From Gallionellaceae bacterium (GTDB lineage: Bacteria; Pseudomonadota; Gammaproteobacteria; Burkholderiales; Gallionellaceae), in NCBI GenBank assembly GCA_019753125.1, contig JAIELH010000021.1:1-64000 (forward strand): 64,000 nt of DNA. The letters are read 5' to 3'. The notes beneath the pieces were generated by a model. The model saw only the letters and a list, made by a program, of their open reading frames with translations, searched no databases and was not told the DNA's origin. The position numbers and the translations under genes are program-made. This document shows positions 1 to 43,012 of the stretch, piece after piece (the first letter of the stretch is position 1; each line of letters starts with the position of its first letter).

Positions 1-790
1 CGGCCTGGCCTGCGACGGCTACAAGCCGGTGGTGGCGATTTATTCGACCTTCCTGCAGCGTGCCTACGATCAACTGATCCACGACATTGCGATCCAGAAT
101 CTGCCGGTCGTGCTGGCAATCGACCGTGGCGGGCTGGTCGGCGCGGACGGCGCGACCCATGCGGGCAGCTTTGATCTTTCCTATATGCGCTGCATTCCCA
201 ACATGACGGTGATGGCGCCGTCTGACGAAAACGAATGCCGCCAGATGCTCTACACCGCCTTCCAGTTGAATACGCCGAGCGCGGTGCGCTACCCGCGCGG
301 GCGCGGCCCCGGCGTGACGATCAGCGAGGCAATGCACGCCTTGCCGGTCGGCAAAGGCGAGTTGCGGCGCAGCGGACGCAAGGTGGCGATATTGTCGTTT
401 GGCTCGATGCTGGCGCCCGCGCTGGCGGCTGCCGAACAACTGGACGCCAGCGTCGCCAACATGCGCTTCGTCAAGCCGCTGGACGCCGAACTGGTGTTGC
501 GGCTGGCGCGCGAACATCAACTGCTGGTGACGGTTGAGGAAAATACCATACAGGGCGGGGCGGGCAGCGCGGTGGCGGAATGCCTGCAACAGCACGGCGT
601 TGCGATACCGCTGCTGCAACTCGGTTTGCCGGACAGTTTTCTCGAACAGGGCGAGCACGCGCAGATGCTGGCCGATTGCGGCCTGGATGCCAACGGCCTG
701 GTTGCCGCCATTAAACGGGCCGAGGAGCGGGAATCGAGGATCGAGCCGGGTGTTTTCCCTGATTCTCGCTCCTCGCTCACTGTTCCTTAA
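1..790 (+). CDS. dxs: 1-deoxy-D-xylulose-5-phosphate synthase, C-terminal part
   Basis: This is the 3' part of the first enzyme of the MEP isoprenoid pathway, which condenses pyruvate and glyceraldehyde-3-phosphate using thiamine diphosphate. The gene runs in from before the window, with codons in frame from base 2. The fragment follows Dxs closely: the pyrimidine-binding transketolase segment ([15 protein letters not shown], then [11 protein letters not shown] and [13 protein letters not shown]) and the transketolase C-terminal domain ([14 protein letters not shown]). The family normally ends near the AAIKRA segment. Here about 22 further residues follow, encoded by heptamer repeats at 722-774, so the tail is probably acquired. 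ispH, a later step of the same pathway, lies at 31464-32387. Confidence 0.95.
722..774. repeat. heptamer repeat pair at the end of dxs
   Basis: Three 7-nt units (GAGGAGC, GGGAATC, GAGGATC; 722-742) face an inverted arm of GATTCTC and GCTCCTC (761-774). The repeat is translated as the last residues of Dxs. It has the same design as the repeats at 4063, 7491, 14712, 17600 and 42913. Confidence 0.55.
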
Positions 791-819
791 TCTACAATCC
801 TCCAATGAGAGAGGCTGTC

Positions 820-1623
820 ATGAACGTCGCCGCAAAATCCCCGATCCCCGATGTGCAAAGCTCGGCCGATACCCGCCATCTGGCGATCAACCGGGTCGGC
901 ATCAAGGGCATCCGCCATCCGGTCAAGGTCAAAGACAAGAGCATCGGCGTGCAGCATACGATCGCCACGTTCAACATGTACGTGCACCTGCCGCACAACT
1001 TCAAAGGCACGCACATGTCGCGTTTCGTCGAGATACTCAACGAGCACGAGCGCGAGATTTCCGTGGAATCCTTCGAGAGCATCCTGCAGGAAATGGTGGT
1101 TCGCCTCGAAGCGCAGTCCGGCTACATCGAAATGAGCTTCCCGTATTTCGTCAACAAAACCGCGCCGGTTTCCGGCGTGCAAAGCCTGCTGGATTACGAC
1201 GTCACGTTGATCGGCGAAACGGTCGACGGCAAAGTGCGCGTCACGATGAAAGTGGTCGTGCCGGTCACCAGCCTGTGCCCGTGCTCCAAGAAAATATCCG
1301 ATCGCGGCGCGCACAACCAGCGTTCCCACGTCACGCTCACGCTGCGCACCAACCGCTTCGTCTGGATCGAAGATGTGGTGCGGATCGCCGAGGAGCAGGC
1401 ATCCTGCGAACTGTTCGGGTTGCTGAAGCGCCCGGACGAAAAATACGTCACCGAACGGGCGTACGACAACCCCAAATTCGTCGAGGACATGGTGCGCGAT
1501 GTCGCGGCGGTGCTGAACGCCGACGAGCGCGTCGACGCCTTTGTCGTGGAATCGGAAAATTTTGAATCGATCCACAACCATTCCGCTTATGCGCTGATCG
1601 AACGCGACAAGACGCTGGGTTAA
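820..1623 (+). CDS. folE2: GTP cyclohydrolase I, FolE2 type
   Basis: Converts GTP to 7,8-dihydroneopterin triphosphate, the first step of folate synthesis. The protein is the FolE2 (type IB) form, unrelated in sequence to FolE. The LCPCSK segment near residue 149 carries the conserved cysteine region, followed by the family-typical stretch [10 protein letters not shown] chose the ATG at 820 because GAGAGAGG (807-814) sits five bases upstream; an in-frame ATG at 805 would add five residues. In other bacteria FolE2 is used when zinc is scarce. I see no second folE in the window. FolK, a later folate-pathway enzyme, is at 10432. Confidence 0.93.
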
Positions 1624-1655
1624 TAATTTCTGTCGAAGTTGGTCATGGCTATTTC

Positions 1656-1907
1656 TGCCAGCCGCTGGTTTCGAGCGCCACTGCCGCAGAACTTATCCGT
1701 GTGCTGGCCTACCCAAAATTCAAACTTGCTGGGGAAGAACAGCAAGAGTTGCTGGCCGACTATCTGCCTTACTGCGCCACGGTGCGCATGCCCGCCAAGC
1801 TGCCCGCAACGCCAGTTTGCCGCGACAAATTCGACATGCCGTTTCTGCAACTCGCAGTCGCGGGCAAAGCGGACTATCTGGTTGCTGGACCGCCGATCAA
1901 TTCATGA
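1656..1907 (+). pseudogene. remnant of a PIN-domain toxin-like protein
   Basis: In the frame that ends at 1907 the translation is PLVSSATAAELIRVLAYPKF, followed by a stretch containing LLADYLPYC, CRDKFDMPFLQLA and GKADYLV. This is the middle and late part of a PIN-family ribonuclease of the COG1569 toxin type. The N-terminal LDTNV-type segment with the first catalytic aspartate is missing, and the reading frame ends soon after ADYLV, before the last conserved acidic residues. There is no start codon or RBS at a sensible place. I read it as a fossil left in the gap after folE2, next to another fossil at 1921. Confidence 0.65.
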
Positions 1908-1920
1908 AAACGCTCAACCC

Positions 1921-1995
1921 ATGGCCACACCCGACATCACAGGCAAACTCTGGAACCTGTGCAACGCCCTCAAGGGCGACGGCGTCACCCCGTAG
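1921..1995 (+). pseudogene. fossil N-terminus of a type I restriction methylase (HsdM-like)
   Basis: An ATG opens a 24-codon frame (MATPDITGKLWNLCNALKGD, then GVTP and stop). It resembles the conserved start of HsdM proteins, where a K-LW-x-x-CN-x-L-(K/R)-x-DG segment precedes the helical N-terminal domain. Nothing further of hsdM is visible in any frame. The match is short, so the call rests on family memory. Together with the PIN remnant it suggests a lost defence or toxin island. Confidence 0.45.
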
Positions 1996-2014
1996 CCGCA
2001 CTTCACCAAGAGTG

Positions 2015-2218
2015 TTATTCGCCACGCTTTCTCCGGCCTGTCACGGATTCACCGCCGACGCCCCAATTGTCGGTTTCAATTTCATCGATGACCACCACGG
2101 TGGTTTTTGGATTCTTCCCCAGAACATCAACCAATAGCTGGGTCGCACCCTGGATCAGCCTGGCCTTTTGTTCGGGTGTTGCGCCTTCTCTGGTGATTTT
2201 GATATTGACGTAGGGCAT
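2015..2218 (-). CDS. 4-oxalocrotonate tautomerase-family protein
   Basis: A 67-residue member of the small tautomerase superfamily. The start at 2218 puts proline directly after the initiator methionine (MPYVNIKITREG), and Pro1 is the catalytic base once Met is removed. AAGGAA lies just upstream on the minus strand. The family builds homohexamers of beta-alpha-beta units and isomerises 2-hydroxymuconate-type ketoacids, but many members have unknown substrates. The arginine at position 11-12 of typical enzymes is present as TREG. No aromatic-degradation genes are nearby, so the substrate cannot be inferred. It follows the unknown gene at 2263-2727 by 44 bases and is probably co-transcribed. 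Confidence 0.85.
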   Translation of the reverse strand: MPYVNIKITREGATPEQKARLIQGATQLLVDVLGKNPKTTVVVIDEIETDNWGVGGESVTGRRKRGE

Positions 2219-2262
2219 AAGATTTCCTTGGGTCGAAAATTGAAAAAATTTCAAGGGGCTGC

Positions 2263-2727
2263 TCAGTAGTTTTTATTCAGGTTTCCGCCGAATTGACTGA
2301 AGCTGGTTATGACTGATTTGCCGCCGACCTGGGGAGCCAGCTCCTTTCTTTGGGTGGCATAGACAGTCATCGCCACGCTCTCATTGTCGTAGATGGCCAT
2401 TGGCACATATCCATCGCCAATCATCTCGCGGATTATGCCCCGGACGATTTCATGCGCTTTTGCGTCTTCTTCCTGCATGGACACTTCTTGCTTGCCGTGC
2501 AATACGATATGCAGGCAGTCTGGCAGGCAATTGCCGGCCTTGATTTTTGCAATGGCGGTCACCGAAAGTTTTTGCCCCCATTGCTCCGGGATTTGATAGT
2601 AATGAAAAACTGCATGCGCGAATTTTTTTGCGTCGGCAACATCGGGGCAGCTTATATAAAATATGTGTTGCAGATTTGTTGTCGAGAAGCCTACTTCATA
2701 GGTTTCAATATTTTGTTCGGTCGTCAT
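2263..2727 (-). CDS. hypothetical protein of 154 residues
   Basis: I do not recognise this protein. It is soluble, without signal peptide or membrane segments. A central stretch (QEEDAKAHEIVRGIIREMIG) is predicted helical, and the protein is slightly rich in aromatic residues and histidine near the N-terminus (HIFYISCPD, HAVFHYYQIPEQWGQK). Two cysteines flank a short loop (NCLPDCLHI, residues 67-75). The coding frame has normal codon use and a purine-rich RBS. The small tautomerase gene lies directly downstream on the same strand, so a shared transcript is likely. Confidence 0.7.
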   Translation of the reverse strand: MTTEQNIETYEVGFSTTNLQHIFYISCPDVADAKKFAHAVFHYYQIPEQWGQKLSVTAIAKIKAGNCLPDCLHIVLHGKQEVSMQEEDAKAHEIVRGIIREMIGDGYVPMAIYDNESVAMTVYATQRKELAPQVGGKSVITSFSQFGGNLNKNY

Positions 2728-2897
2728 TTTTTACCTTTGTGTTGCTGCAAGGCGCAAGTCTGCATGATGCATGCTGATTGGCTCTGGTTTTACAAATCCG
2801 GCAGGCCGCCGGAAGGAATGGTGGCTTGTTGTTTGCGGCGGCAATTATAACTCATCGGCTACTGCCATCGACTGTCGGGGGCGCGCGGCGTTTCCGC

Positions 2898-2903
2898 TAT
2901 AAT
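2898..2903 (+). promoter_or_regulatory. possible -10 element of mutL
   Basis: A perfect TATAAT lies 38 bases before the mutL start. No convincing -35 hexamer is visible at the usual spacing. Confidence 0.35.
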
Positions 2904-2940
2904 TCGGCGCGTACATCGCTACTACACCCGGTTTCTGTAT

Positions 2941-4737
2941 ATGTCCGTCATTCAACTGCTCCCTGATCTGCTCATCAATCAAATCGCCGCCGGCGAAGTG
3001 ATCGAGCGCCCCGCTTCGGCGCTCAAGGAGTTGCTGGAGAACAGCCTGGATGCGGGGGCAACGGACATCGCGGTGCAGATCGAAGGCGGCGGTGTCAAGC
3101 TGTTGCGCGTGCGCGACAACGGCAAGGGCATCGCCAAGGATCAGTTGGCGCTGGCGCTGATGCGCCACGCCACCAGCAAGATCGCTTCGCTGGACGATTT
3201 GCAGCGCGTCGCCAGCATGGGGTTTCGCGGCGAGGCGCTGGCGAGCATGGCGGCGGTGGCGCATCTGTCCCTCACCAGCCGCACCGTACACGAGGCGCAC
3301 GGCTGGAAAGTCGATGCGCTCAACGGCGTCATCGGCGAACCCGCGCCGGCCAGCCATGCGCCGGGCATCACCGTGGAAATGCGCGAGCTGTATTTCAATA
3401 CTCCGGCGCGGCGCAAATTCCTGAGATCGGAAGCCACCGAATTCGCGCACTGTGAAGAAACGTTCAAGCGCATCGCGCTGTCGCGCCCCGATGTGGCTTT
3501 TTCGCTGCAACACAACGGGCGCACGGTATGGCAATTGCCTGCGATTCAAGACCGGCAATCCGTGTTGAAGCGCGTCGCGGCGCTGCTTGGCGATGAGTTC
3601 GGCCAGGCGGCCGTGCCGGTTGCGCGCCAGGCGGCCGAGCTTTCGCTGCAAGGCTTGGCGGCGCTCCCGGCCTATTCGCGCGGCAGCCGCGATGCGCAAT
3701 ATTTTTTCGTCAACGGGCGCTTCGTGCGCGACAAGGTCGCCAGCCATGCGCTGCGCCAGGCCTATCAGGATATCCTGCATCACCAGCGCCATCCCGCCTT
3801 CGTGCTGTTTCTGGACATGCCGCCGGAGCAGGTGGATGTGAACGTGCATCCGGCCAAGAGCGAAGTGCGCTTCCGCGAGAGCCAAGGGATACACCAGTTT
3901 ATCTTTCACACGCTGCAACAGGCGCTTGCGGTTCCAGCCAGCGGGCAAGAAACACGGGCGCCCGAGCCACAACGCCCCACACCATACATCCCGACGCAAC
4001 AATCCATGCGCCTTGGCGTTGCCGAAAGGGAAGCGGCATATCGGTTGTGGGAAATGCAGACAGAGAAGGGAGAAGAGGGAAGGGAGAAGGGTGATGCACC
4101 TTCCGCTTTTGACGTTTCCCTTCCCCCTTCCCCCTTCCCCCTTCACGATGTTGCTCCTCCGCTCGGTTTCGCTCTCGCCCAGCTCTCCGGCACCTACATC
4201 CTCGCGCAGAACACGCAAGGCCTGATCGTCGTCGATATGCACGCCGCGCACGAACGCATCGTCTATGAACGGCTCAAGACCTCACTGGACACCGAACGGC
4301 TCGCCACCCAGCCGCTGCTGATCCCGGTAAGCTTCCATGCCAGCGCGCTCGAAGTTGCCACGGTCGAGGCCGAACAGGACGCGCTCAACACGCTGGGCTT
4401 CGACATTGCGCCGCTGTCGCCCAACACCCTCGCAGTGCGCGCGATGCCGGCGCTGCTCAGGCAGCCCGAGGCGGAAGCCGCCGCGCGCGACGTGATCGAC
4501 GAACTGGGCGAATTCGGTGCGAGCCGCGTCCTGACCGAACGGCGCAATGAGCTGCTCGCCACGCTTGCCTGCCACGGCGCGGTGCGCGCCAACCGCATCC
4601 TCAGCATCACCGAGATGAACGCGCTGCTGCGCGAAATGGAACAGACCGAACGCTCCGGCCAGTGCAACCACGGGCGGCCGACGTGGTTCCAGATTACGCT
4701 GGCGGAACTGGATGCGATGTTCATGCGAGGGAAATGA
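2941..4737 (+). CDS. mutL: DNA mismatch repair protein MutL
   Basis: MutL couples MutS mismatch recognition to strand incision. The N-terminal GHKL ATPase is clear: NQIAAGEVIERPASALKELL, ENSLDAGA with the catalytic Glu, DNGKGI, and GFRGEALASM (residues about 12-100). The C-terminal dimerisation domain ends with [12 protein letters not shown]. The linker holds about 28 residues encoded by two inverted arms of heptamers (residues 375-402), an in-frame insertion into the flexible linker. The final 52 codons plus stop (4579-4737) are repeated at 5533-5691, so the present 3' end may be an incoming copy. mutS is on the other strand at 60086-62647. Confidence 0.96.
   Translation: MSVIQLLPDLLINQIAAGEVIERPASALKELLENSLDAGATDIAVQIEGGGVKLLRVRDNGKGIAKDQLALALMRHATSKIASLDDLQRVASMGFRGEALASMAAVAHLSLTSRTVHEAHGWKVDALNGVIGEPAPASHAPGITVEMRELYFNTPARRKFLRSEATEFAHCEETFKRIALSRPDVAFSLQHNGRTVWQLPAIQDRQSVLKRVAALLGDEFGQAAVPVARQAAELSLQGLAALPAYSRGSRDAQYFFVNGRFVRDKVASHALRQAYQDILHHQRHPAFVLFLDMPPEQVDVNVHPAKSEVRFRESQGIHQFIFHTLQQALAVPASGQETRAPEPQRPTPYIPTQQSMRLGVAEREAAYRLWEMQTEKGEEGREKGDAPSAFDVSLPPSPFPLHDVAPPLGFALAQLSGTYILAQNTQGLIVVDMHAAHERIVYERLKTSLDTERLATQPLLIPVSFHASALEVATVEAEQDALNTLGFDIAPLSPNTLAVRAMPALLRQPEAEAAARDVIDELGEFGASRVLTERRNELLATLACHGAVRANRILSITEMNALLREMEQTERSGQCNHGRPTWFQITLAELDAMFMRGK
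4063..4143. repeat. inverted heptamer arrays inside mutL
   Basis: Four G/A-rich heptamers (GAGAAGG, GAGAAGA, GGGAAGG, GAGAAGG; 4063-4090) are followed after 25 bases by four C/T heptamers (TTCCCTT and three CCCCCTT; 4116-4143). The arms are largely complementary and are read through in frame in the MutL linker. A near-identical pair lies between genes at 42913-43012. Confidence 0.75.
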
Positions 4738-4752
4738 CCTGTATCGCCTGAA

Positions 4753-4792
4753 CATGCCCAAATCGGGTATCTTGATACCCGATTTGGGCATG
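4753..4792. repeat. perfect 18-bp-arm hairpin behind mutL
   Basis: Arm one (4753-4770, beginning CATGCCCAAATC) is exactly repeated in inverse at 4775-4792 around a CTTG loop. No T-run follows, so it is not a standard intrinsic terminator. It lies at the junction between mutL and the MNT-HEPN module and could mark an element end. Confidence 0.7.
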
Positions 4793-5155: not shown

Positions 5156-5514
5156 GCAAAGCAGACCTCCTGCGCATACCGGACTATCTCGGCTACATCG
5201 TCGAGGCTATCGAACGTATCCACGAATATGTTTCGGATATGAACGAAGTGTCCTTCCTCGAAGACAGGAAGACCCAGGACGCCGTCATCCGCAACTTCGA
5301 AATCATCGGCGAAGCGGCACGCAACATCGAACGCCATCATGCGCAATTTGCCGCAGCTCACCCGGAAGTGCCCTGGTCAGTCATTTACACCATGCGCAAT
5401 CGCGTCGCGCATGGCTACTTCACGGTTGACCTGGGAATCGTCTGGAAAACGATACACACTGACTTGATCGAACTGCACGCGCAAATCCGCAAGCTGCTCG
5501 AACAAGCTGGTTAG
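5152..5514 (+). CDS. hepT: HEPN-domain toxin (HepT/DUF86 family)
   Basis: A 120-residue all-helical HEPN protein. The catalytic RNase motif RX4H followed by XY is present as R82, H87 and Y89 in MRNRVAHGYF. In studied homologues this arginine-histidine pair cleaves RNA and the tyrosine is the site AMPylated by the partner antitoxin. The start overlaps the antitoxin stop by four bases, implying translational coupling. All motif residues are intact, so the module may be functional. Only 18 bases separate its stop from the duplicated mutL end. Confidence 0.87.
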   Translation: MSKADLLRIPDYLGYIVEAIERIHEYVSDMNEVSFLEDRKTQDAVIRNFEIIGEAARNIERHHAQFAAAHPEVPWSVIYTMRNRVAHGYFTVDLGIVWKTIHTDLIELHAQIRKLLEQAG

Positions 5515-5532
5515 ACTTCTGCGAACCATTCC

Positions 5533-5691
5533 GCAGTGCGCGCCAACCGAACCATGAGCATCACCGAGATGAACACGCTGCTGCGCGAGATGGAACAGAC
5601 CGAACGCTTCGGGCAGTGCAATCACGGGCGACCGACCCGGTTCCAGATTACGCTGGACGAACTGGATGCGATGTTTATGCGGGGAAAGTAA
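5533..5691 (+). pseudogene. second, diverged copy of the mutL 3' end
   Basis: These 159 bases align without gaps to 4579-4737, the last 52 codons and stop of mutL, with about 20 differences in my hand alignment. The frame is open to a TAA and translates as a MutL C-terminus (GQCNHGRPT present). Trp in PTWFQI is Arg here and Ser in ERSGQ is Phe, so it has drifted. There is no start codon or upstream mutL sequence. It is most simply the original or displaced 3' end left when the MNT-HEPN segment inserted or recombined in. Confidence 0.88.
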
Positions 5692-5695
5692 AGAT

Positions 5696-6206: not shown

Positions 6207-7478
6207 TTGAAAAAGTCTAATTCAACAGTCCGCATCGCCTTCGCCAGCTTTATCGGCACCGCCATCGAGTTCTACGATTTCTACATCTACGGCCTCGCGG
6301 TGGCGATGGTGATCGGGCCGGTGTTTTTTCCCGGCAGCGACCCGGCTGCGCAGGCGCTGAATGCGTTCCTGACGTTCGGCATCGCGTTCCTCGCGCGGCC
6401 GCTCGGCGCGTTGCTGTTCGGGCATTTCGGCGACCGCATCGGGCGCAAGACGACGCTGGTTGCGTCGCTGCTGGTGATGGGCATTTCCACGATGTTGATC
6501 GGCGTGCTGCCCGGCCACGATATGATCGGTTGGGCCGCACCTGCGCTGCTGTGCCTGCTGCGCTTCGGCCAGGGCATCGGCCTCGGCGGCGAATGGGGCG
6601 GCGCGGCGTTGCTGGCGGCGGAGTATGCGCCCAAGGGCAGGCGCGGCTGGTTCGGCATGTTCCCTCAGCTTGGGCCGCCGGTCGGCTTCCTGTTTGCGGT
6701 CGGCAGCTTTTTGCTGCTGTCGCAGTGGCTCGACGATGCGCAATTCCGTGCGTGGGGCTGGCGCATTCCGTTTCTTGCCAGTGCCGCGCTGGTGATCGTC
6801 GGCCTGTATGTGAGGCTCAGGCTCACCGAGACGCCGGTGTTCGCCAAAGCCATGTCAGTACACCAACCAGTGAAGCTGCCGCTGGCAGAATTGTTCAGAC
6901 ATCACGCAAAGCCGCTGCTGCTGGGCGCATTGGCGATGGTGGTGTGTTATGCGCTGTTCTATATCTCCACGGTGTTCAGCTTGAGCTACGGCGTTACCAC
7001 ACTCGGCATCCCGCGCCCGCAATTCCTGACGATGCTGTGTGTTGCCGTCGTCTTCATGGCTGCGGCCACGCCGCTTGCCGCCATCGCGGGTGACTGCTAC
7101 GGCCGCCGCCCGGTGTTGCTCGTTGCGGGCAGTGCGGCATTGCTGTCCGGCTTCCTGCTTGCGCCGATGCTCGGCAGCGGCTCGCCGTTTCAAATCACCG
7201 CGTTTCTCTCGATTGAACTGTTCCTGATGGGTGCAACGTTCGCGCCGATGGGCGCGCTGCTGCCGGAATTGTTTCCGACCGGAGTGCGCTACACCGGCGC
7301 AGGCGCAGCCTACAATCTGGGAGGTATCCTCGGCGCGTCGCTGGCACCCTATCTCGCACAACAACTGGTGCTGCACGGCGGCCTCGCCTGGGTCGGCGGC
7401 TATGTATCCATCGCAGCGGCGATCAGTTTGCTTGCTGTGCTGATGATGTCCGAGACGAGAGACCGGGAGTTAGCATGA
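6207..7478 (+). CDS. MFS transporter, metabolite:H+ symporter (MHS) family
   Basis: A 423-residue inner-membrane carrier with about 12 hydrophobic segments. The N-terminus ([18 protein letters not shown]) and the loop [10 protein letters not shown] are hallmarks of the MHS subfamily that includes ProP, ShiA and KgtP. The long segment [18 protein letters not shown] is also characteristic. The apparent start is TTG at 6207 with no strong RBS; the first residues (KKSNSTVR) are slightly shorter than in relatives, so a recombination event could have trimmed the 5' end. The substrate cannot be told from sequence. The stop overlaps miaA by four bases. Confidence 0.85.
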
Positions 7479-8455
7479 ATACCTTTTCTCGATCCTCGAT
7501 CCCCGATCCTCAATCCTCAAAAAAATTGCCTCCAGCTATTTTTTTGATGGGGCCTACCGCCAGCGGCAAGACCGATGTTGCGGTGGAGCTTGCGCAAAGC
7601 TTGCCGGTGGAGATCATCAGCGTGGATTCCGCGCTGGTATATCGTGGCATGGACATCGGCACCGCCAAGCCGGATGCCGCCACGCTTGCCCGTGCGCCGC
7701 ATCACCTGATCGATATCCGCGATCCCACCGAAGCCTATTCCGCCGCAGCGTTCTGCCACGATGCGCTGCACCTGATGCAGGACATCACGCGGCGCGGCAG
7801 AATACCGCTACTGGTGGGCGGCACGATGCTGTATTTCAAGGCGCTGCGCGAAGGGTTGAGCCAGTTGCCGGAGGCCGATGCCGCCGTGCGCGCCGAGCTC
7901 GATGCGGAAACCGCAAGGCATGGCATCCAGTATCTGCACCATCAACTCGCGCAGGTAGATGCGGAAACCGCCGCACGTCTGGCGCCCGGCGATACCCAGC
8001 GCATCCAGCGCGCGCTGGAGATTTACCGGCTGTCCGGGCGGCCGATGTCGGAGCTGCTCCGGCAGCAGACGAGTGTCGAACTGCCTTACCGCGTTCTGCC
8101 GCTTGCGCTGATACCCGGCGAGCGCAGCGTGCTGCATCAGCGCATCGCCCTCCGCTTCGGGAAAATGCTCGAACAAGGTCTGGTCGAGGAATTGCACGGT
8201 TTGCGGCAACGCTATGACTTGCACCCGGATTTGCCGTCGATGCGCTGCGTTGGCTATCGTCAGGCCTGGCAATTCATCGAGGGCGAAATCAGCGCGGCGC
8301 AACTGCTGGAAACCGGCACTGCGGCCACCCGCCAGCTCGCCAAACGGCAGCTCACCTGGCTGCGTTCCATGCCGGACAACATTAAAATCGACCGTTTTTC
8401 CGGCAGTTTCATGCAACAGGTTTATGAGATGTTGCAGCCATTTATGCGCTCATAG
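7475..8455 (+). CDS. miaA: tRNA dimethylallyltransferase
   Basis: Transfers a dimethylallyl group from DMAPP to N6 of A37 in tRNAs reading UNN codons. The P-loop GPTASGKT (about residue 26) and the [17 protein letters not shown] segment identify it. The protein is 326 residues, with a normal-length core. The first 20 residues ([12 protein letters not shown]) are not family sequence and are encoded by four heptamers at 7491-7518. The start overlaps the upstream transporter stop (ATGA), but a later start would have to be non-ATG, so the extension appears to be translated. DMAPP comes from the MEP pathway genes dxs and ispH present here. Confidence 0.94.
7491..7518. repeat. four heptamers in the 5' end of miaA
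   Basis: Units GATCCTC, GATCCCC, GATCCTC and AATCCTC follow without spacing. Only one arm is seen; there is no inverted partner. It belongs to the same class of 7-nt repeats seen in mutL and ileS. Confidence 0.65.
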
Positions 8456-8600: not shown

Positions 8601-8957
8601 ATGAAAAAATTGATAGCATTGGCTTGTCTGGGTTTCGCATTCACTGTTTCCGCTCCTGCTTTCGCTGCTGGCGAGAAGATGAAGGGCTGTAACAAGGAGG
8701 CGACGGGCATGAAGGGCGATGAACGCAAGGCGTTCATGAAGAAGTGCCTGTCCAAGGATTATGAATTGAAGGCAGACGCCGCAAAGCCGGCAGCTCCGGC
8801 AACTCCAGCCACTGCGGCAAAACCGGCAGCACCAGCAACACCGGCAGCTGCGGCAACCCAGCAGGACAAGATGAAGGTATGCAACGCAGAAGCCAAGACC
8901 AAGGCGTTGCAGGGGACTGATCGCAAGCTATTCATGAGCGCCTGTCTGAAGAAATAG
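8601..8957 (+). CDS. PsiF-repeat periplasmic protein
   Basis: A 118-residue exported protein. Residues 1-22 form a Sec signal peptide ending AFAAG. Two PsiF-type repeats (MKGCNKEA...KAFMKKCLS and MKVCNAEA...RKLFMSACLKK) each carry two cysteines, spaced by an Ala-Pro-rich linker of repeated PAAPATPA units. PsiF is phosphate-starvation induced in E. coli; its function is unknown. The gene stands alone behind miaA with its own RBS (AAGGGGAA) and a hairpin after it. The linker looks recently expanded by repeat slippage. Confidence 0.85.
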   Translation: MKKLIALACLGFAFTVSAPAFAAGEKMKGCNKEATGMKGDERKAFMKKCLSKDYELKADAAKPAAPATPATAAKPAAPATPAAAATQQDKMKVCNAEAKTKALQGTDRKLFMSACLKK

Positions 8958-13443: not shown

Positions 13444-16320
13444 ATGACTGATTACAAAGCCACCTTAAATCTCCCCGATACGGCCTTCCCGATGCGCGGC
13501 GATCTCGCCAGGCGCGAGCCGCAGATGGTCGCCAAATGGCAGGCGCAACAGCGCTACCAGAAGATACGCGCGGCCAAACAGGGCAAACCGAAATTCATCC
13601 TGCACGACGGCCCGCCGTATGCGAACGGCGATATTCACATCGGCCACGCGGTGAACAAGATACTCAAGGACATCATCATCAAGAGCAAGACGCTGTCCGG
13701 CTTCGATGCGCCCTATGTGCCGGGCTGGGATTGCCACGGCCTGCCGATCGAATTGCAGGTGGAAAAGAAGCACGGCAAGGCCATTCCGCCGTCGCAGTTC
13801 CGCGAGCTGTGCCGCGCCTATGCGCAGGAGCAGATCGAGCGCCAGAAAAAAGATTTCATCCGCCTCGGCGTGCTCGGCGATTGGGAGCATCCCTATCTGA
13901 CGATGGATTTCAAGACCGAGGCCGACATTATCCGCGCGCTCGGCAGCATCCACGAGCGTGGCTATCTGTATCAGGGCTACAAGCCGGTCAACTGGTGCCT
14001 GGATTGCCAGTCGGCGCTGGCCGAGGCGGAAGTGGAATATGAAAACAAGACTTCGCCAGCGATCGATGTGGGTTTCGAAGTCAAAGACAGGCACGCACTG
14101 GAGAAAGCGTTTGGTGTATCGCTGCCGGGTGATGCGAAAGCGTATGCGGTGATCTGGACCACTACGCCGTGGACGTTGCCGGCGAACGAAGCGGTGAGCG
14201 TGCATCCCGAGTTTGAATATCGTTTGGTCAGGACTGAAAAAGGGTGTCTGCTGCTGGCCGCCGAATTGTTGGAAGGCTGCTTGCAGCGCTATCAGTTGAG
14301 CGGCGAGATCATCGGGCAATGCAACGGCGCGGCGCTTGACATGTTGCCGCTGCAACACCCGTTTTACGAGCGCATCGTGCCGGTCATCTGCGGCGACCAT
14401 GTCACGCTGGAAGCGGGTACCGGCCTGGTGCATACCGCACCGGCGCACGGCTTGGACGATTACTTCGTCGGGCAGAAATACCATCTGCCGACCGATAATC
14501 CGGTCGGCGACGACGGCAAATTCATCGCCAACCTGCCGCTGGTCGGCGGCTTGTTCGTGTGGAAAGCCAACGATGTCGTGATCGAGGCGCTCAAAAATAG
14601 CGGTCATTTGCTGCACCTGGAAAAAGTGCAGCACAGCTATCCGCATTGCTGGCGCCACAAGACCCCGATCATTTTTCGCTCTACGCCACAGTGGTTTATC
14701 GGGATGGATTCCAGAGGACAGAGGACAGAGGGCAGAGGACAGAAGGCAGTAGATGCCTTGGTGCAGGAAAAGCGCGAGCACGGTGTTGCACAGGCACACC
14801 GAGACGGGTCGAGCCTGCGCGACCTTGCCAATCAGGCTGTCGAGCAGACCGAATTCTTTCCCGCCTGGGGGCGCGCACGGCTCGAAGCGATGATCAGGAA
14901 CCGCCCCGACTGGTGCGTGTCGCGCCAGCGCAACTGGGGTGTGCCGATGCCGTTCTTCGTGCACAAGGAAAGCGGAGAATTGCATCCGCGCACGCCGGAA
15001 CTGCTGGAGCAGGTCGCGCAGCGCGTCGAGCGCGACGGCATCGAGGCGTGGTTCAGTTTGAACTCGGTGGATTTGCTCGGCGCAGAAGCGGAGCATTACA
15101 AGAAAATCACCCACACGCTGGACGTGTGGTTCGATTCGGGCGCTACCCATGCGGCGGTGTTGCAGCGCCGCGCGGAGCTGCGCTCCGGCTCTGATCTTTA
15201 TCTGGCCGATCTGTATCTGGAAGGTTCAGACCAGCATCGCGGCTGGTTTCAGTCGTCGCTGCTGACCGGCTGCGCGATCAATGGCCGCGCGCCTTTCAAG
15301 GCGTTGCTGACGCATGGTTTCGTCGTCGACGGCAGCGGCCACAAGATGTCGAAATCCAAGGGCAACGTGATCGCGCCGCAGAAGATTTTCGATACGATGG
15401 GCGCGGACATCCTGCGCCTGTGGGCGGCCGCGACCGATTATTCCGGCGAGCTGACGATCTCCGATGAAATTTTGAAGCGTGTCGTGGAAAGCTACCGGCG
15501 CATCCGCAACACGCTGCGTTTTTTATTGGCCAATATTTCGGATTTCGATCCGCAGCAGCATACGTTACCGGTTGCGCGATGGCTCGAGATCGACCGCTAT
15601 GCGCTGGCAACGGTGCAACGTTTGCAGGATGAGGTAACACAGGATTACGCGCGTTACGAGTTCCATCTGATCGCGCAGAAATTGCAGACCTTCTGCTCCG
15701 AAGCCTTGGGCGGTTTTTACCTGGATGTCCTGAAAGACCGCTTGTACACCGCCGGTGAGAATTCCGCCGCGCGCCGCTCCGCGCAGAACGCGCTGTATCA
15801 CATCACCCATAGCCTGGCGCGCCTGATTGCGCCGATCCTCAGCTTCACCGCCGAAGAGGCGTGGGAGGTATTGAACGGCAAACAGGACGAGAGCGTGTTC
15901 ATCGATGAGTGGCATCGATTGCCTGACGCACAGTTGGACGGCGAAGCGATTGCCGCATGGCTGAAAATCGAAGCTTGGCGTGCCAAGGTGAACAAGCAAC
16001 TGGAAGAGGCGCGTGCCGCCGGGCTGATCGGCTCGGCACTGGCCGCCGAGGTGGATGTGTATGCGGCGGGAGAAGATTACGGCGTGCTGGCGCGTTTGGG
16101 CGCCGACCTGCGCTTCGTGTTCATCACCTCGCGCGCAACGGTGCATCGCGCCGCGACGGAAGCGGAACAGCATATCGATGTCTCCGCCAGCCTGCATGAC
16201 AAGTGCGAACGCTGCTGGCATTACCGTGAGGATGTCGGCAGCGATGCCAATCATCCCGCGATCTGCGGGCGTTGCGTGAGCAACCTGTTCGGAGCGGGCG
16301 AGGCACGGCAGTATGCTTGA
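13444..16320 (+). CDS. ileS: isoleucyl-tRNA synthetase
   Basis: Charges tRNA-Ile. The class I motifs are clear: HIGH as [12 protein letters not shown], and KMSKS as [12 protein letters not shown]1 editing-domain segments are present ([19 protein letters not shown]), and the C-terminal zinc knuckle is CERCWHY with CGRC. The length of 958 residues exceeds most bacterial type enzymes because about 30 extra residues lie between FIGMD and LRDLANQAV (about residues 422-456), starting with five CAGAGGA-type heptamers at 14712-14746. The insertion keeps frame and sits just before the conserved PAWGRARLE segment. It lies upstream of lspA. Confidence 0.96.
14712..14746. repeat. five tandem heptamers inside ileS
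   Basis: Units CAGAGGA, CAGAGGA, CAGAGGG, CAGAGGA and CAGAAGG run head to tail and are translated in frame as [11 protein letters not shown]. No inverted arm is seen. The class is the same as in mutL and the lytic transglycosylase gene. Confidence 0.75.
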
Positions 16321-16967: not shown

Positions 16968-17702
16968 TTAGCTGCGGTTAGCCGGGAGCGTATCGTTGCT
17001 GACGGTCCGGCGTGGTGACGCCCAATTGTTGTGCCATGCGGCGCGCACCATGGCCGGATATTCCGGGCTTCCCAGGCTGCCGTTGTAGCGCCCCAAGGCG
17101 CGATACAGATCGCCTTTTTCGATGTCCAGATAGTAGCGCAGGATCGTGCAGCCGTAGCGCAGGTTGGTGCGCAGGTGGAACAGGTTGTGTTCCGCTGTGC
17201 CGATCTCTTTCACCCAGAACGGCATCACCTGCATGTAGCCGCGCGCGCCGACGCTGGAAACCGCGTATTTCTTGAAGCCGCTTTCCACCTCGATCAACCC
17301 CAGCACCAGTTCCGGTTCCAGTCCGGCACGGGTCGCCTCGTAATGTACGGTACTCAGGAAATCGAGGCGCGATTCGATATCCGGTATGCGCTTCTGCAAG
17401 CGCCGCGACATTTCCTTCAGCCACACGTCCGCTTCGTACTGCGTCGCAAACGCCAGCCTGGGCGAAGCCTGGTCCGCCACGCTGCGCTGCAATACCGCGC
17501 GGACACTCGCCGACAGCGGCGCGTAAACCTGCGCGCCAGCCGATGCGCCGGAGAAAGGGAGGCAGAGTGCAATAGCAAGGATTAGCAATCCAGGGTTTAG
17601 GATTTGGGATTTGGGATTTTGGATTTGAGGAAACGCGGAACCGCCGGGCGGCTTGGTGCTTGCCCTAAATCCTAAATCCTCAATCCTTAATCCTGTTTTC
17701 AT
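16968..17702 (-). CDS. lytic transglycosylase (SLT domain)
   Basis: A periplasmic murein-cleaving enzyme. The catalytic glutamate is in [20 protein letters not shown], followed by [14 protein letters not shown] and [12 protein letters not shown], the three SLT blocks. The ATG at 17702 overlaps the proS stop (ATGA), which supports this start. About 37 residues (ending [11 protein letters not shown]) precede the hydrophobic signal segment [19 protein letters not shown]; they are encoded by heptamer arrays. A late start nearer the signal peptide would be non-ATG, so the exported precursor may carry an odd N-terminal extension. Confidence 0.87.
17600..17691. repeat. inverted heptamer arrays at the 5' end of the transglycosylase gene
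   Basis: Four GGATTTG/GGATTTT heptamers (17600-17627) face four CCTAAAT/CCTCAAT/CCTTAAT heptamers (17664-17691). The arms can pair with few mismatches. On the coding strand they fall between the start codon and the signal peptide. Confidence 0.75.
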
Positions 17703-34654: not shown

Positions 34655-34659
34655 TGAAA

Positions 34660-38098: not shown

Positions 38099-39184
38099 CT
38101 AAATATTCTCCTCCGCCATCGCGGCGAGCTGTTCGGCCTGGTGCTCGGCCATCAGCGCGCCGGTCAGTTCGCCGATGTCGCCGTCCATGATCGCATCCAT
38201 TTTGTATAGCGTCAGGTTGATGCGGTGGTCGGTGACGCGGCCTTGCGGGAAGTTGTAGGTGCGGATGCGCTCGGAGCGGTCGCCGCTGCCGACCAGGCTC
38301 TTGCGCGTCGCGGCGGTCTTGGCGTTCTGTTCGCGCACCTGTGCGTCCTTGATGCGGGCCGCCAGCACGCGCAGCGCCTGTGCCTTGTTCTGGTGTTGCG
38401 AGCGGCCGTCCTGGCACTCGACGACGACGCCGGTCGGCAGGTGGGTGATGCGCACCGCCGAATCGGTCTTGTTGATGTGCTGGCCGCCTGCGCCGCTGGC
38501 CCGAAAGGTGTCGATGCGCAGATCGGCGGAATTCAGCACCACGTCGTTGACCTCGTCCACCTCCGGCATGACCGCGACGGTGCAGGCCGAGGTATGCACG
38601 CGGCCCTGGGTTTCGGTTGCGGGGACGCGCTGCACGCGATGCGCGCCGGATTCGAATTTCAGCACCGAGTACGCGCCCTGGCCGATGATCCGGGCGATGA
38701 TTTCCTTGTAACCGCCCATTTCGCCGGGGCTTTCCGAGATCACTTCCACCTGCCAGCGTTTGCGTTCGGCGAAGCGCGAATACATGCGGAACAGGTCGCC
38801 GGCAAACAGCGCCGCCTCGTCGCCGCCGGTTCCGGCGCGCACTTCCAGAAATACGCCGCGCTCGTCGTTGGGATCCTTGGGCAGCAACTGCACCTGCAAT
38901 TCGGCGGCGAGTTGCGTCAGGCGTTCCTGCCCCTGTTTGATCTCGGCCTCGGCAAATTCTTTCATCTCGGGGTCGGACGCCATTTCCTGCGCGGTGTCGA
39001 TATCGGCCTGGCAGGCCTGCCAGGCGTGGTATAGCTCCACGACCGGTTCGAGTTCGGCGCGTTCGCGGTTCAGCTTGCGGAACGCGTCCATGTCCCTGGT
39101 CGCGTCTTCGGTGCTCAGTAGTTGGTTGACTTCGAGCAGGCGCTCGCTCAGTTGGGCGAGTTTGGTGGCAATAGTTGGTTTCAT
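38099..39184 (-). CDS. prfA: peptide chain release factor 1
   Basis: Terminates translation at UAA and UAG. The GGQ loop is in [20 protein letters not shown], and the stop-recognition tripeptide PAT is in [17 protein letters not shown]. Length 361 residues. The start at 39184 ([16 protein letters not shown]) matches the family; in-frame codons before it run through the inverted-repeat element. hemA lies 122 bases upstream on the same strand, the classic hemA-prfA pair. Confidence 0.95.
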
Positions 39185-39307
39185 TTCGATTCTATTTCGA
39201 AGGTCAAACAAGGCGGCGACGAGCGAACGACGCAGACAGTGCAAATGGCACGGCTAGGAGTGAGTGAGGAAGCCAACGCAGTTTCACCGATGAAATAGGA
39301 TCGAAAT
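39183..39307. repeat. inverted-repeat element filling the hemA-prfA gap
   Basis: Arms 39183-39198 (ATTTCGATTCTATTTC) and 39292-39307 match as reverse complements at 15 of 16 positions. The 93-base centre starts near AAGGCGGCGACGAGCG and ends near AACGCAG. The arms touch the prfA start codon and the hemA stop codon. Confidence 0.7.
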
Positions 39308-40560
39308 CATTCTTCGGGGTGCAGGTGATAGAGACGGTGGATCACATCGAGAAAAGCTTCGCGGTCATCGCCATGCACCTGGTTCAGCGCCTGGGTCGGG
39401 GCATGCAGGAATTTGTTGGTCAGGCCGTTGCTCATCGCTTCCAGCACCTTCGCCGGGTCGTCACCTTTGGCCAGCAGGCGCAGGGCTTTTTCCATTTCGT
39501 GGCGGCGGTCACGCTCGGCATGGTCGCGCATTGCGCGGATTGTCGGCACCACTTCGCGCGATTCCATCCAGTGGATAAAATCCGCCACGCCGGAATCGAT
39601 GATGATCTCGGCTTCCTTCACCGCACCCTGCCGTGCATCCAGCCCGTCTTTCACGACTTCTGCGATGTCGTCTACCGTGTACAGAAACACGTCGTTCAGC
39701 TCGGCGACTTCCGTTTCGACGTCGCGCGGCACGGCCAGATCGACGATGAAGATCGGGCGGTGTTTGCGTATCTTGAGCGCCCGCTCGACCATGCCTTTGC
39801 CGAGAATCGGCAGCGGGCTGGCGGTGCAGGTGACGATGATGTCGTGTTGCGCCAGTTGTTCCGGCAGGTCGTTCAGCGTGATCGCATGGCCGTTGATGCG
39901 CCGCGCCAGCACTTGAGCGCGCTCGATCGTGCGGTTCGCGACAGTGATGTGTTTCGGCGAGCGCGCCGCAAAATGCACCGCATTGAGTTCGATCATTTCG
40001 CCCGCGCCGATGAACAGCACGCGCTGTTCGGCGATGCTCGGGAAGATGCGCTCGGCCAGCCGCACCGCGGCGGCAGCCATCGAAACCAGGTTGGCGCCGA
40101 TCTCGGTCTGGGTGCGCACGTCCTTGGCCACCGAGAAGGTGCGCTGGAACAGCTTGTGCAGCAGGAAACCCAGCGTACCGGCCTGTTCGGCATGGCGCAC
40201 TGCCTGCTTCATCTGCCCGAGGATCTGCGGCTCGCCCAGCACCATCGAATCCAGCCCGCTCGCGACGCGGAACGAATGCTTGACCGCCTGCTCGCGCGGC
40301 AGCGTGTAGAGGTAGGGGTCGAGGTCTTTGCGCGACAGGTGGTGATATTGCGCCAGCCAGTCGATCGCATGGTCGGGCTGGGTGGAATTGCAATACAGCT
40401 CGGTGCGGTTGCAGGTGGACAAAATCGCCGCTTCCTTTGCCGCGCCGTTTTCCACCAGATTGCGCAGCGCGTTCTCCACTCCGTCCTCGTTGAAAGCGAC
40501 TTGCTCGCGCACGGCAAGCGGCGCGGTCTGGTGGTTGATGCCAAAGGCGAACAACTGCAT
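39307..40560 (-). CDS. hemA: glutamyl-tRNA reductase
   Basis: Reduces glutamyl-tRNA to glutamate-1-semialdehyde, the first step of C5 heme synthesis. The catalytic cysteine lies in [11 protein letters not shown], with [13 protein letters not shown] and [13 protein letters not shown] (NADPH site) following. Length 417 residues. Upstream of prfA with an element between. Heme is needed by the cytochrome b561, NarI and other electron carriers in the window. Confidence 0.95.
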
Positions 40561-40687
40561 TTCGGTATATGCCTGACGGCAGAGCTAAAAGGAGCGCGGA
40601 TTATAGTCGTAACGGCGGAGCAATGCCATGCGCCGCATCTGCGAAATTCGCATAGAATGCGCGCCTGTTCAATAAAATAGCGCGCTC

Positions 40688-41236
40688 ATGGCCATTAAAG
40701 CTACCGTATTCAAAGCCGCCCTCCAGGTTGCCGACATGGATCGCCACTATTACGCCGATCACCTGCTGACGCTGGCGCGCCACCCCTCGGAAACCGACGA
40801 GCGCATGATGGTGCGGCTGCTGGCTTTCGCGCTATACGCCGACGAGGCGCTGATTTTCGGCAAGGGTATCAGCGGCAACGACGAGCCCGATCTGTGGCAG
40901 AAAGACCTTACCGGCGCGATAGAGCGCTGGATAGAGGTCGGGCTGCCCGACGAGCGCGATATCCGCAAGGCCGGCGGGCGGGCAAACCAGGTGGTCGTCA
41001 TCAGTTACGGGCGTGCCGCCGACATCTGGTGGAATCAGAACCGTGACAAGTTGCAACGCCTGGATAATCTCGTTGTGCTCAATCTCGCGAGTGAGAGCAC
41101 CCAGGCGCTTGCCGCGCTGGTCAGCCGCACGATGCAGCTGCAATGCGCGATTCAGGAGGGGCAGGTGATGGTGACCAGCGCTGCGGGCATGATTGAGGTT
41201 GAGCCGAAAGTGTTGAAGGCGGCTGTTGGGGCATGA
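40688..41236 (+). CDS. yaeQ: YaeQ-family protein
   Basis: A 182-residue soluble protein beginning MAIKATVFKAALQVADMDRH with the typical blocks HPSETDERMMVRLLAFALYA, DLTGAIERWIEVGLPDERDI and MVTSAAGMIEVEP. The fold is related to PD-(D/E)XK nucleases but activity is not established. The stop overlaps the following ychJ-type gene by ATGA. Divergent from hemA. Confidence 0.93.
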   Translation: MAIKATVFKAALQVADMDRHYYADHLLTLARHPSETDERMMVRLLAFALYADEALIFGKGISGNDEPDLWQKDLTGAIERWIEVGLPDERDIRKAGGRANQVVVISYGRAADIWWNQNRDKLQRLDNLVVLNLASESTQALAALVSRTMQLQCAIQEGQVMVTSAAGMIEVEPKVLKAAVGA

Positions 41237-41628
41237 GCGCGAATACATTGCGCTGCCCCTGTGGCGGGGCTGACTATTCGGTCTGTTGCGGGCGCTACCA
41301 CGGTGGTTTGCCCGCGCCGGATGCCGAGGCGCTGATGCGTTCCCGGTACAGTGCTTACGTACTCGGCTTGGAAAGCTATCTGCTTGCTACCTGGCATCCC
41401 GATACCCGTCCTGCCGAACTCGATCTTGCGGCAGACAAGATGAAATGGATAGGGCTCGATATAAAGAACTGCACGGCAGAATCGGCAGATCAGGCTACCG
41501 TGGAGTTTGTTGCGCGCTACAAGATCGCCGGGCGCGCCCATCGTTTGCATGAAATCAGCCGGTTTGTGTGCGTGGAGGGGCAATGGTTTTATGTGGACGG
41601 AAAATTTCCGGCAAGGCGCGAGCGATGA
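41233..41628 (+). CDS. ychJ: YchJ-family SEC-C motif protein
   Basis: A 131-residue protein with N-terminal zinc-type motif CPCGGADYSVCCGRYHGG and the conserved MRSRYSAYVLGLESYLLATW, followed by TVEFVARYKIAGRAHRLHE, the NTF2-like part. Function in the cell is not known. It is translationally coupled to yaeQ. Confidence 0.92.
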   Translation: MSANTLRCPCGGADYSVCCGRYHGGLPAPDAEALMRSRYSAYVLGLESYLLATWHPDTRPAELDLAADKMKWIGLDIKNCTAESADQATVEFVARYKIAGRAHRLHEISRFVCVEGQWFYVDGKFPARRER

Positions 41629-41950
41629 GCCGTGCTTCCGGAAAGGCGCGCACGTTGACGTGAAACTCGCGTAGCGATTTGTTTGCCCTTTCTCCCGCAG
41701 GGATTGAAGATTGCCTTTCGCGTTCGCCTCCTCGCCCGCTTGCGGGATAACCAGCGACTTGCACGGATTTATCGTGCTTAGTCGAATGGCTAGTTGCTTT
41801 ACCAGAGGATTGAGGAGAGGGCATCGGGGGAAAGTTGGATAGGGGGAAGCGGGCATGGCGCGTTTTATTAACGGGGGGTGGTATCTTTGCCATGCCCGTT
41901 AGGCCGCTTAATCCATTACAATCGTCTGGTTTGTTGATTCAGGGGCGCTA
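41629..41950. other. gene-free gap of 322 bases
   Basis: No convincing gene, RNA or repeat. A minus-strand open frame across 41555-41893 has no family sequence or RBS. The promoter of the cyclase gene is presumably in the last hundred bases. Confidence 0.6.
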
Positions 41951-42868
41951 ATGTCAAGCAGCATGGAAAAACTGGCCGTTTTATTTGCCGATATCTGCGG
42001 CAGCACCGCGCTTTACGATAACCTTGGCGATGATCTGGCGCGCCGCCTGATAGCGCGCTGCATTGCCACAATGGTCAACGAGATTCCCGCGCATCAGGGC
42101 ACGCTGGTCAAAACCATCGGCGACGAAATCATGTGCACTTTCCCCAGCGCCGAGGCTGCACTGAATGCCGCTTGTGCGATGCAGCGCGCGGTGGAGCATG
42201 GCAGGCTGGAGGAAGGCGCCCGGATGCATATCCGCATCGGTTTTCATTATGGCGATGCGATTCGCGAGGCTGGCGATGTGTTCGGCGATACCGTTAACGT
42301 TGCCGCGCGTGTCGCGGCGATAACCAGGGCTAGCCAAATCATGGCGACCCGGGCCGTGGTTGACGCCTTGCCGCCCGATTCGCGCGACAAAATGCGCCAG
42401 ATCATGCGCGCCGAATTCAAGGGAAAGCAGGAGCAGTTCGATATTTTCCTGGTGGTATGGGAAATGGATGACATGATGAGCACCCGCATCGGCACCCCGG
42501 AATTCCGCAAATCCCCGGAGAATAACGATGAGTTGTCCCTGCGTTATCGCAATCAGGAGATCAGGATCGGCAAGGATCGCAGGACCGCAGTGATGGGGCG
42601 CGGCGAAATTTGCGATATTGTCGTGCAAAATAATTTTGCATCGCGCCAGCACGCCCGTATCGAGTTGCGGTTCGGAAAATTTGTTCTTGTGGATCAGAGC
42701 ACCAATGGGACGTATACCCGCTCCAGTGACGGCAATGTGGCGCGCATCGCCCGTGAGGAAATGATCCTGCAAGGCTCGGGCTCCATCAGCATGGGGCGGC
42801 CTTATACCGAAAACCCCGTCGATCTGATCGAATTCGCGATTACTTCAACCCGTGCCCGCAACAAGTGA
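41951..42868 (+). CDS. class III adenylate/guanylate cyclase with FHA domain
   Basis: A 305-residue soluble protein. The N-terminal cyclase domain (residues 5-175) has the metal-binding Asp in VLFADICGSTALYD, the second acidic site in TIGDEIMCTFPSAE, and DTVNVAARVAAI. The lysine in LVKTIGDE fits adenine recognition. The C-terminal FHA domain (about 195-300) has the phosphothreonine-binding residues in GRGEICDIVVQNNFASRQHA and STNGTYTR. It thus links cNMP synthesis to a phosphopeptide signal. Membrane segments are absent. It lies directly before narX, though a 240-base gap with heptamer arrays separates them. Confidence 0.9.
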   Translation: MSSSMEKLAVLFADICGSTALYDNLGDDLARRLIARCIATMVNEIPAHQGTLVKTIGDEIMCTFPSAEAALNAACAMQRAVEHGRLEEGARMHIRIGFHYGDAIREAGDVFGDTVNVAARVAAITRASQIMATRAVVDALPPDSRDKMRQIMRAEFKGKQEQFDIFLVVWEMDDMMSTRIGTPEFRKSPENNDELSLRYRNQEIRIGKDRRTAVMGRGEICDIVVQNNFASRQHARIELRFGKFVLVDQSTNGTYTRSSDGNVARIAREEMILQGSGSISMGRPYTENPVDLIEFAITSTRARNK

Positions 42869-42912
42869 GCAGAGTAAGAGAGATGGAAATTGCCAAAATA
42901 CTTTTTATGGTA

Positions 42913-43012
42913 AAGGGAGAAGAGGGAAGGGGGAAGGGTAAGAACTCCTTTCCGAATAAAGGGTGCGAGGGTTTTATCCTTCAACCCTTCACTCTTCCCC
43001 CTTCTCCCTTCT
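42913..43012. repeat. inverted heptamer arrays between the cyclase gene and narX
   Basis: Four heptamers (AAGGGAG, AAGAGGG, AAGGGGG, AAGGGTA; 42913-42940) face an inverted C/T-rich arm at 42985-43012. The sequence is very close to the pair inside mutL, but here lies outside a gene. Confidence 0.75.

Follow-up and report, generated by a model that had tools for sequence, protein, structure and literature searches.

Tandem heptamers make up the short tandemly repeated repetitive (STRR) sequences of cyanobacteria. Arrays of the same period recur in a Gallionellaceae bacterium, both in a window of 64,000 nt (contig JAIELH010000021.1, assembly GCA_019753125.1, positions 1–64,000) and elsewhere in its genus, and these arrays are the subject of the present analysis. 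Our interpretation, which we regard as reasonably probable, is that they form the arms of short hairpin-forming repeats, dispersed in the genome and belonging to one superfamily, which work like REPINs (repetitive extragenic palindromic doublets forming hairpins) or like miniature inverted-repeat transposable elements (MITEs). Heptamer repeats are a leading class of long simple sequence repeats (LSSRs), according to the available passages of PMC4679880 and PMC4692102. The latter (Rehm et al. 2015) describe GGGNATC heptamers of Xanthomonas and Nostoc, with 70 and 75 convergent inverted pairs in two Xanthomonas genomes. The arrays discussed here resemble them in being G-rich heptamers in convergent inverted pairs and in occupying the same gene junctions with differing lengths and sequences; the Xanthomonas repeats also show a preference for four units. 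As far as those passages go, one unit type was studied per genome, mostly in non-coding DNA, and the reading was based on G-quadruplexes (G4), whereas here we find many unit families, preferred ends, shared cores and in-frame copies within core genes.

Geobacter metallireducens, in the available passages of PMC2700814, carries 49 elements, within genes as well as between them, that consist of four heptamers in tandem; in its class 3, runs of five such heptamers are paired on opposite strands, eight times in all. The architecture of class 3 is that found here, with a different unit sequence; the Geobacter elements were read as regulatory RNA or regulator-binding sites, and polarity, ends and cores are undescribed in those passages. 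The TAACTGA repeats of Beggiatoaceae and cyanobacteria (PMC4679880, in part) are likewise tandem heptamers, mostly between genes, but they have a single conserved unit and are nearly all direct, with one inverted case. Our class II elements, whose unit is CAGARGA (GGACAGA), share with REPINs, as described in the accessible parts of PMC3116915 and PMC3733652, an inverted doublet of small hairpins with a short spacer, here the class II core, as well as dispersal and occurrence in frame inside genes. Unlike REPINs, they have TTGT and ACAA at the core in place of a GTAG or CGTC tag, and outer arms of tandem heptamers.

The order of the arms is without exception in our sample. Up to 41 genomes of the genus were covered, one per species, so that all comparisons are between species; G-numbers denote these genomes (G000 being our own, a 2.47-Mb assembly in 97 contigs) and L-numbers denote loci. 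The genus loci contain 136 arrays, 68 of them G-rich on the plus strand, 64 C-rich and 4 with little skew. An inverted partner lies within 150 nt downstream of 41 of the 68 G-rich arms and upstream of none; for the C-rich arms, which for the most part are the second members of those pairs, a partner lies upstream in 41 of 64 and downstream in none. All 41 inverted pairs run from a G-rich arm through a loop to a C-rich arm, with none reversed, and direct partners number 9 in total among the 136 arrays. Represented among the pairs are 11 genomes and 13 canonical units, with 22 pairs of class II-like and 19 of other units; many loci were fetched by matches to GGATTTG or GGACAGA, which biases the units and not the order of the arms. 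The same order was found in loci of Acidobacteriota and Chloroflexota (5 and 7 partners, none reversed) and on IMG/VR contigs (5 and 9 partners, none reversed, with 3 skewless arrays outside the count). Such a polarity equals the end-to-end fusion of two 3′-extended ends, and it might thus reflect break-repair patches, in which G-rich heptamers would be added to the 3′ ends at a resected break; if both ends were extended, a G-rich and then a C-rich arm would result and native sequence would be lost. We consider this improbable; the conserved core of the class II elements would not be expected from it.

Indeed, class II elements have preferred ends and a shared core. In our own genome, pattern search together with the pieces around matches gave 40 class II arms, which under a pairing rule of a gap <260 form 9 pairs and leave 22 arms unpaired; as judged by eye, a core follows four of the latter, making them half-elements, and two belong to a pair as outlying bits. 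The outer end lies at the C of CAGARGA in 31 of the 40 own arms and, in a multi-species set, in 30 of 44 paired arms (one base earlier in 10, elsewhere in 4) and 12 of 18 unpaired ones. Arm length is 33 or 34 nt in 18 of the 40 and exactly 33 nt in nine of the 22 unpaired arms. These features recall the terminal inverted repeats of MITEs with their fixed ends, as a preference here and not as an absolute rule. Most class II pairs flank a core of ~58 nt made of two small hairpins bordered by TTGT and ACAA, which is present in both orientations. From three species (G000, G012 and G015), 23 of 25 cores were aligned over ~58 nt, those left out being a truncated core in L197 and a core with a nested repeat in L270. 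Two-sided changes affect four of the nine predicted base pairs, the remainder being nearly invariant, and the covariation term is small (-0.41); for this reason the alignment speaks for homology of the cores rather more than for selection on their structure. No Rfam family covered the element in four loci, and a BLAST search of plasmid and phage records with a class II element gave no match, although the low-complexity filter may hide the arms.

Some individual copies deserve mention. A 442-aa frame runs, close to its beginning, through a whole class II element (L045:12444-12584) without loss of phase; from the right arm of the element the peptide LIPVLCLLGC would be expected, which we take to resemble a lipoprotein signal. 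Another lies ~700 nt from the tmRNA gene of G015 (L184:1-231). A palindromic element, TAACCAGCGACTTGGC..GGCTAGTAGTTCC, is nested in heptamer arms in several species (L119, L185:3836-3869, L075, L131, L270), and its CTACTA end directly adjoins a class II pair in three cases from three species.

The abundance of class II units is species-specific. Counted as overlapping matches to the 14-mer GGACAGAGGACAGA with at most one mismatch, they number 190 in G015, 162 in G054, 76 in G056, 61 in G012, 50 in our own genome, 27 in G047, 18 in G009 and 10 in G019; the other 33 genomes have at most 8 each, and a backward control gave 0–5 per genome. The 14-mer is present in 25 of the 41 genomes and numerous in few. 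Beyond the genus, CAGARGA arrays occur on 12 IMG/VR contigs (two apparently represent one locus), several of which also contain other heptamer units; a GGATTTR inverted pair was found on no IMG/VR contig. When 84,980 species were scanned once for GGATTTG as an exact inverted pair, three loci emerged, two in Acidobacteriota and one in Caldilineaceae, each with further period-7 arrays.

Ordinary slippage has to be weighed against these observations. Heptamer microsatellites would then arise from chance seeds through a polymerase favouring 7-nt slips, and their inverted partners by fold-back template switching; we hold this to be possible, if rather doubtful. The privileged status of period 7 is in its favour. 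In a run-scoring scan performed for each period p, with a score of at least 12 as the cut-off for an array, the window contains 5 arrays at p=7 and, as its harmonic, 3 at p=14, with none at any other period from 2 to 15; Markov-1 shuffles of the window (n=10) gave a mean of 0. An earlier note on the window, made from its sequence alone, had proposed a comparison of 7-mers with 6- and 8-mers, and this came out clearly: in a genome sample of 464 kb out of 2.47 Mb (the window and 20 stretches of 20 kb), 18 arrays were found at p=7 as compared with 1 at p=6 and 0 at p=8, and a single shuffle of the sample gave 0 at p=7. Further periods gave 13 (p=14, harmonic), 2 (p=9), 3 (p=12) and 6 (p=15). Near-perfect tandem 7-mers beyond chance, by which LSSRs are recognized, are therefore present. 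Loci of relatives fetched for array-carrying genes contain 31 arrays at p=7, 3 at p=6 and 0 at p=8, in a sum that omits G000 and G021 (where runs of N count at every period) and in which overlapping loci were entered twice; 27 loci from other families of the same order (114 kb) contain none at p=7.

Period 7 is privileged in the distant-taxa loci as well, these having been fetched for their arrays, and slippage is the earlier explanation of heptamer preference in the available passages of PMC4679880 and PMC4692102. Long, homogeneous arms occur, one of 97 nt for example; GAAGGGG-type arrays in the gene for pyruvate dehydrogenase E1 (AceE) look seeded by a native TGAAGG; and 22 class II pairs have no target-site duplication. 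Slippage does not, however, predict a preferred outer end, a 33-nt mode, a ~58-nt core at 23 loci, the restriction of a unit's abundance to certain species, or one-way polarity. Ends, cores and polarity are not accounted for by slippage alone, and its part is probably to add and homogenize units, as in the 97-nt arm. The earlier description of a mobile or slippage-driven element tolerating translation thus came close, in that our results favour dispersed elements with preferred ends and cores, in addition to unit turnover, over slippage as the sole agent.

Orthologous sites, where the presence of arrays was judged by eye, are filled in some species and empty in others. In-frame arrays lie in linkers of MutL, IleS, AceE and MnmA, at which sister species have different units, other repeats or nothing; the repeats are not shared by orthologues as conserved protein sequence, a sharing that the earlier note had named as refuting its reading. 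AceE (identified by Pfam) provides the richest series. Between GMY and VQLxGS, 28 of 29 loci were resolved, 10 without an array (33–51 nt, most commonly 39) and 18 with arrays or degenerate arrays. CAGARGA is found in our own genome and G009 (identical over 33 nt), partly in G004, and with further repeats in G019 and G045. GAAGGGG or AAGGGAC occurs in G006, G007, G020, G043 and G044, in a second copy in G012 and, with further repeats, in G042. The other units are CAGGACT (G011), CAGGAAT (G012), AAGTGGG (G017) and CAAGGGG (G021), and arrays are degenerate in G002 and G018. Array alleles measure 48 nt in 11 of 18 cases and 39 nt in G009, so that the array largely replaces native codons. A length of 39 or 48 nt in 12 of the 18 alleles with arrays, where alleles without an array most commonly have 39, would suit break-repair patches, and AceE outer junctions coincide with native CAG or GAAGG; linkers would, however, be free to lose native sequence afterwards.

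Comparable variation is seen at the other sites. The MnmA (tRNA_Me_trans) loop, resolved in 27 of 29 loci, is 18 nt long in 22; it is longer without arrays in G003, G014 and G002, and contains CAGARGA in our own genome (36 nt) and G009 (51 nt). Among 16 genus genomes, the IleS loop contains CAGARGA in our own genome, G012 and G015 and other repeats in G003, G009 and G013; it measures 78–93 nt without an array in G004, G005, G006, G007 and G011, and 27–36 nt in G001, G002, G008, G010 and G014. The MutL linker (22 of 23 genus loci resolved, judged by eye) has inverted heptamers of differing units in 11, other palindromes in six and neither in five. At the junction upstream of slt (17 loci including our own paralogue, by eye), heptamer arms stand on both sides in 11, alike within a species and unlike from one species to another, and are degenerate in three (G001, G008, G013), the remainder having other palindromes (G015) or being short (G005, G006). 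Alignment of seven relatives at the 5′ end of miaA revealed nothing there in three and other palindromic repeats in four. In a UvrD-type helicase, for which nine of 27 loci were resolved, our own genome has a class II element where seven relatives have 87–92 residues (own 94, G045 104).

This turnover also bears on the view that the heptamers are selected regulatory or structural sites, which would bind a nucleoid or regulatory protein or form G4. Such roles were proposed for Xanthomonas (G4, PMC4692102) and Geobacter (IHF/HU or a global regulator, PMC2700814) in the passages available, and class II hairpins are stable as predicted RNA when folded without a shuffle control. Many arrays nevertheless lie inside core genes and are absent or different in sister species, and no single unit sequence is conserved. 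Nor is a three-tetrad G4 kept, because class II units have GG or, as in CAGAAGA, no G tract; the four G tracts of at least three that characterize the Xanthomonas type are lacking in class II (GGACAGA or AGACAGA), although some class I units would provide them. We regard selection for such sites as quite improbable.

Class I elements have many units (GGATTTG, GGATCGA, GAAGGGG, AGTGG, TTAGTCG and others), and their apex is short. Fifteen loops chosen from relatives served as the training set for a half-site, GTGAAAACCG. Among ten loops of our own genome cut by eye, one of them from a paralogue of a training locus, six scored p<0.05, with a combined p of 4e-10 (4e-9 against shuffles). With automatic boundaries and loops outside the training set, 16 of 32 scored p<0.05 (own 8 of 15; combined p 9e-13); these loops are not all independent, some loci having been entered twice, and the loop at 722 was set by hand. 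Since 16 of the 32 score at this level, a GTGAAAACCG-like apex is common to about half of class I loops. The 26-nt loop in mutL had been considered as native sequence on account of G002, which shares part of it and has no clear array; this was dropped, a similar apex being present at slt and elsewhere.

Candidates for a mover were examined in the genomes of the genus. REP-associated tyrosine transposases (RAYTs) were rejected in this role, as PF01797 counts do not follow array counts (five in G006, none in G005 and G002, two weak ones in G015, one in our own genome). Unlike the REPIN/RAYT arrangement, RAYT genes are not flanked by heptamer elements: among 20 fetched PF01797 loci, a heptamer pair occurs in one, ~0.8 kb away, and a short single array in two others, while GTAG-type palindromes, not heptamers, lie near the RAYT gene in two of the 20. 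Reverse transcriptase of family PF00078 was likewise rejected as the maker of the arrays, being absent from four array carriers and present in G009, G019, G054 and G056. As for target sites, flanks of class II pairs match over 3 nt in one of 22 cases, as compared with 0.85 in shuffles, and over at least 4 nt in none.

Several of our results weigh against the interpretation of the arrays as arms of REPIN- or MITE-like elements. No mobilizing enzyme was found among those examined (RAYT, PF01797; reverse transcriptase, PF00078): no paired heptamer element lies near RAYT in 19 of the 20 PF01797 loci, and PF00078 was not found in G000, G012, G015 and G047, three of which are <90% complete. Unlike MITEs, the 22 class II pairs have no target-site duplication, with no clear excess of flank identity over shuffles at 2, 3, 4, 5, 6 or 8 nt. 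Three CAGARGA-armed pairs from G012 and G015 (L188:876-1025, L194:3743-3932 and L201) enclose non-core sequence, the apex half-site is not recovered in half of the class I loops that were scored, and one class I loop passes from p 0.04 to 0.58 upon a shift of its boundary. Finally, the replacement of native codons in AceE, and likewise in MnmA, is unlike plain insertion.

A single-strand or repair route would be compatible with the absence of target-site duplication. Neither native-sequence replacement nor one-way polarity is needed by plain insertion, which leaves a repair-patch origin some small probability; the missing duplication suits it too, while the absence of PF00078 from the four genomes does not. 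In its most general form, bacteria would make G-rich heptamers on broken 3′ ends in the manner of telomeres, without a known reverse transcriptase, and join the patched ends via a small core, each lineage (Burkholderiales, Acidobacteriota, Chloroflexota and the hosts of some phage contigs) using its own unit. One-way polarity, outer junctions seeded by native sequence, lack of target duplication and replaced native sequence are what suggest this idea, which we regard as a long shot.

If the arrays are indeed the arms of dispersed REPIN- or MITE-like repeats, a full element would consist, on either strand 5′ to 3′, of a G-rich tandem-heptamer arm, a short core and an inverted C-rich arm; the class II arm would most often comprise 33–34 nt, or ~4 and 2/3 units from CAG. 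Solo arms are found as well. One unit family would spread through a genome in a burst, and slippage and conversion would then alter units and arm lengths. Elements would persist between genes and, in frame, in unconstrained protein linkers. Whereas the dispersal of the copies, their ends, core homology, species-specific abundance and polarity and the occupancy of orthologous sites are observed, movement, an enzyme acting in trans and slippage-driven turnover of the units are what we infer.

The window itself, studied by direct reading of the letters and with Tandem Repeats Finder, illustrates this range. The earlier note had claimed tandem heptamers at six loci, and 7-periodic DNA is present at all six; its four inverted pairs (at 722, 4063, 17592 and 42913) were correctly recognized, those at 7488 and 14712 being single arms. 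The frames with arrays are, by Pfam and with gene names assigned here, the end of a transketolase-domain (dxs-like) frame, mutL, miaA, ileS and slt. A degenerate inverted pair read by eye occupies the 3′ end of the dxs-like frame (722..778), with a left arm of GAGGATCGAG type (722-745), a loop (746-759, CCGGGTGTTTTCCC) and a right arm (760-778); it was called by neither array detector, and its hand-set loop scores as apex half-site with p=0.007. In the mutL linker, a G-rich left arm of GAGAAGG units (4063..4091, + strand; Tandem Repeats Finder and run scan) is separated from a C-rich right arm of CCCTTCC units (4118..4144, +; array detectors and polarity count) by a loop (4092..4117; apex half-site p=0.02), the apex of which has a similar counterpart at this site in G008 and G019. 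The 5′ end of miaA has a single C-rich TCGATCC/TCAATCC arm (7488..7520, +; array detectors and alignment of relatives), and the variable loop of ileS has a solo CAGARGA arm of class II in frame (14712..14753, +). At the 5′ end of slt, beside a same-strand upstream gene, a G-rich arm of GGATTTG units (17592..17626, +) and a C-rich arm of CCTAAAT units (17664..17694, +) enclose a loop (17627..17663) that does not score as apex half-site (p=0.15). The sixth locus (42913-43013) lies between two frames, after a guanylate-cyclase/FHA protein, and has a G-rich arm of GAAGGGG units (42913..42938, +) and a C-rich arm of CTTCTCC units (42987..43013, +), with p=0.005 for the apex half-site of its loop. 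The placing of five of the six loci in coding sequence stands as far as open reading frames are concerned; the slt and miaA arrays may be leader rather than conserved protein, because the best matches of slt among genus relatives begin at residue 17 or later in 14 of 15 and the miaA array is at the extreme 5′ end of its frame.

Other repeats were noted around these loci. A second slt-like gene (G000:C80:1747-2448, 70% identical) is likewise provided with a heptamer hairpin, in the corresponding position. At the 5′ end of miaA (window 7475-7520), relatives have unrelated paired palindromes, CGTCATTCCCGC.. in G006, G001 and G010 and GTAGGAGCGAGCC.. in G008. The 3′ end of mutL is present a second time ~780 nt downstream of the gene (5512-5688), at 83% identity over MutL residues 540-598 and with one stop; a short ATCCCCG array of 2.3 units is found at the 5′ end of folE2 (837-852), and a 9/27-nt tandem array lies in a small frame (8781-8863).

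As far as the accessible open-licence literature shows, neither CAGARGA-armed elements nor a polarity common to different units have been described, and the combination of preferred ends with shared cores, the many units under one polarity and the in-frame copies replacing native linker in core genes appear to be new. Many bacteria have long been seen to contain heptamer repeats, which were classed as microsatellites. The preferred ends, the shared core, bursts confined to certain species and a polarity that, across unrelated units, has no exception in the sample imply that at least one large group of them is a dispersed element class. The question 'why seven' thereby becomes testable, and a source of odd in-frame linker peptides in core proteins is explained.

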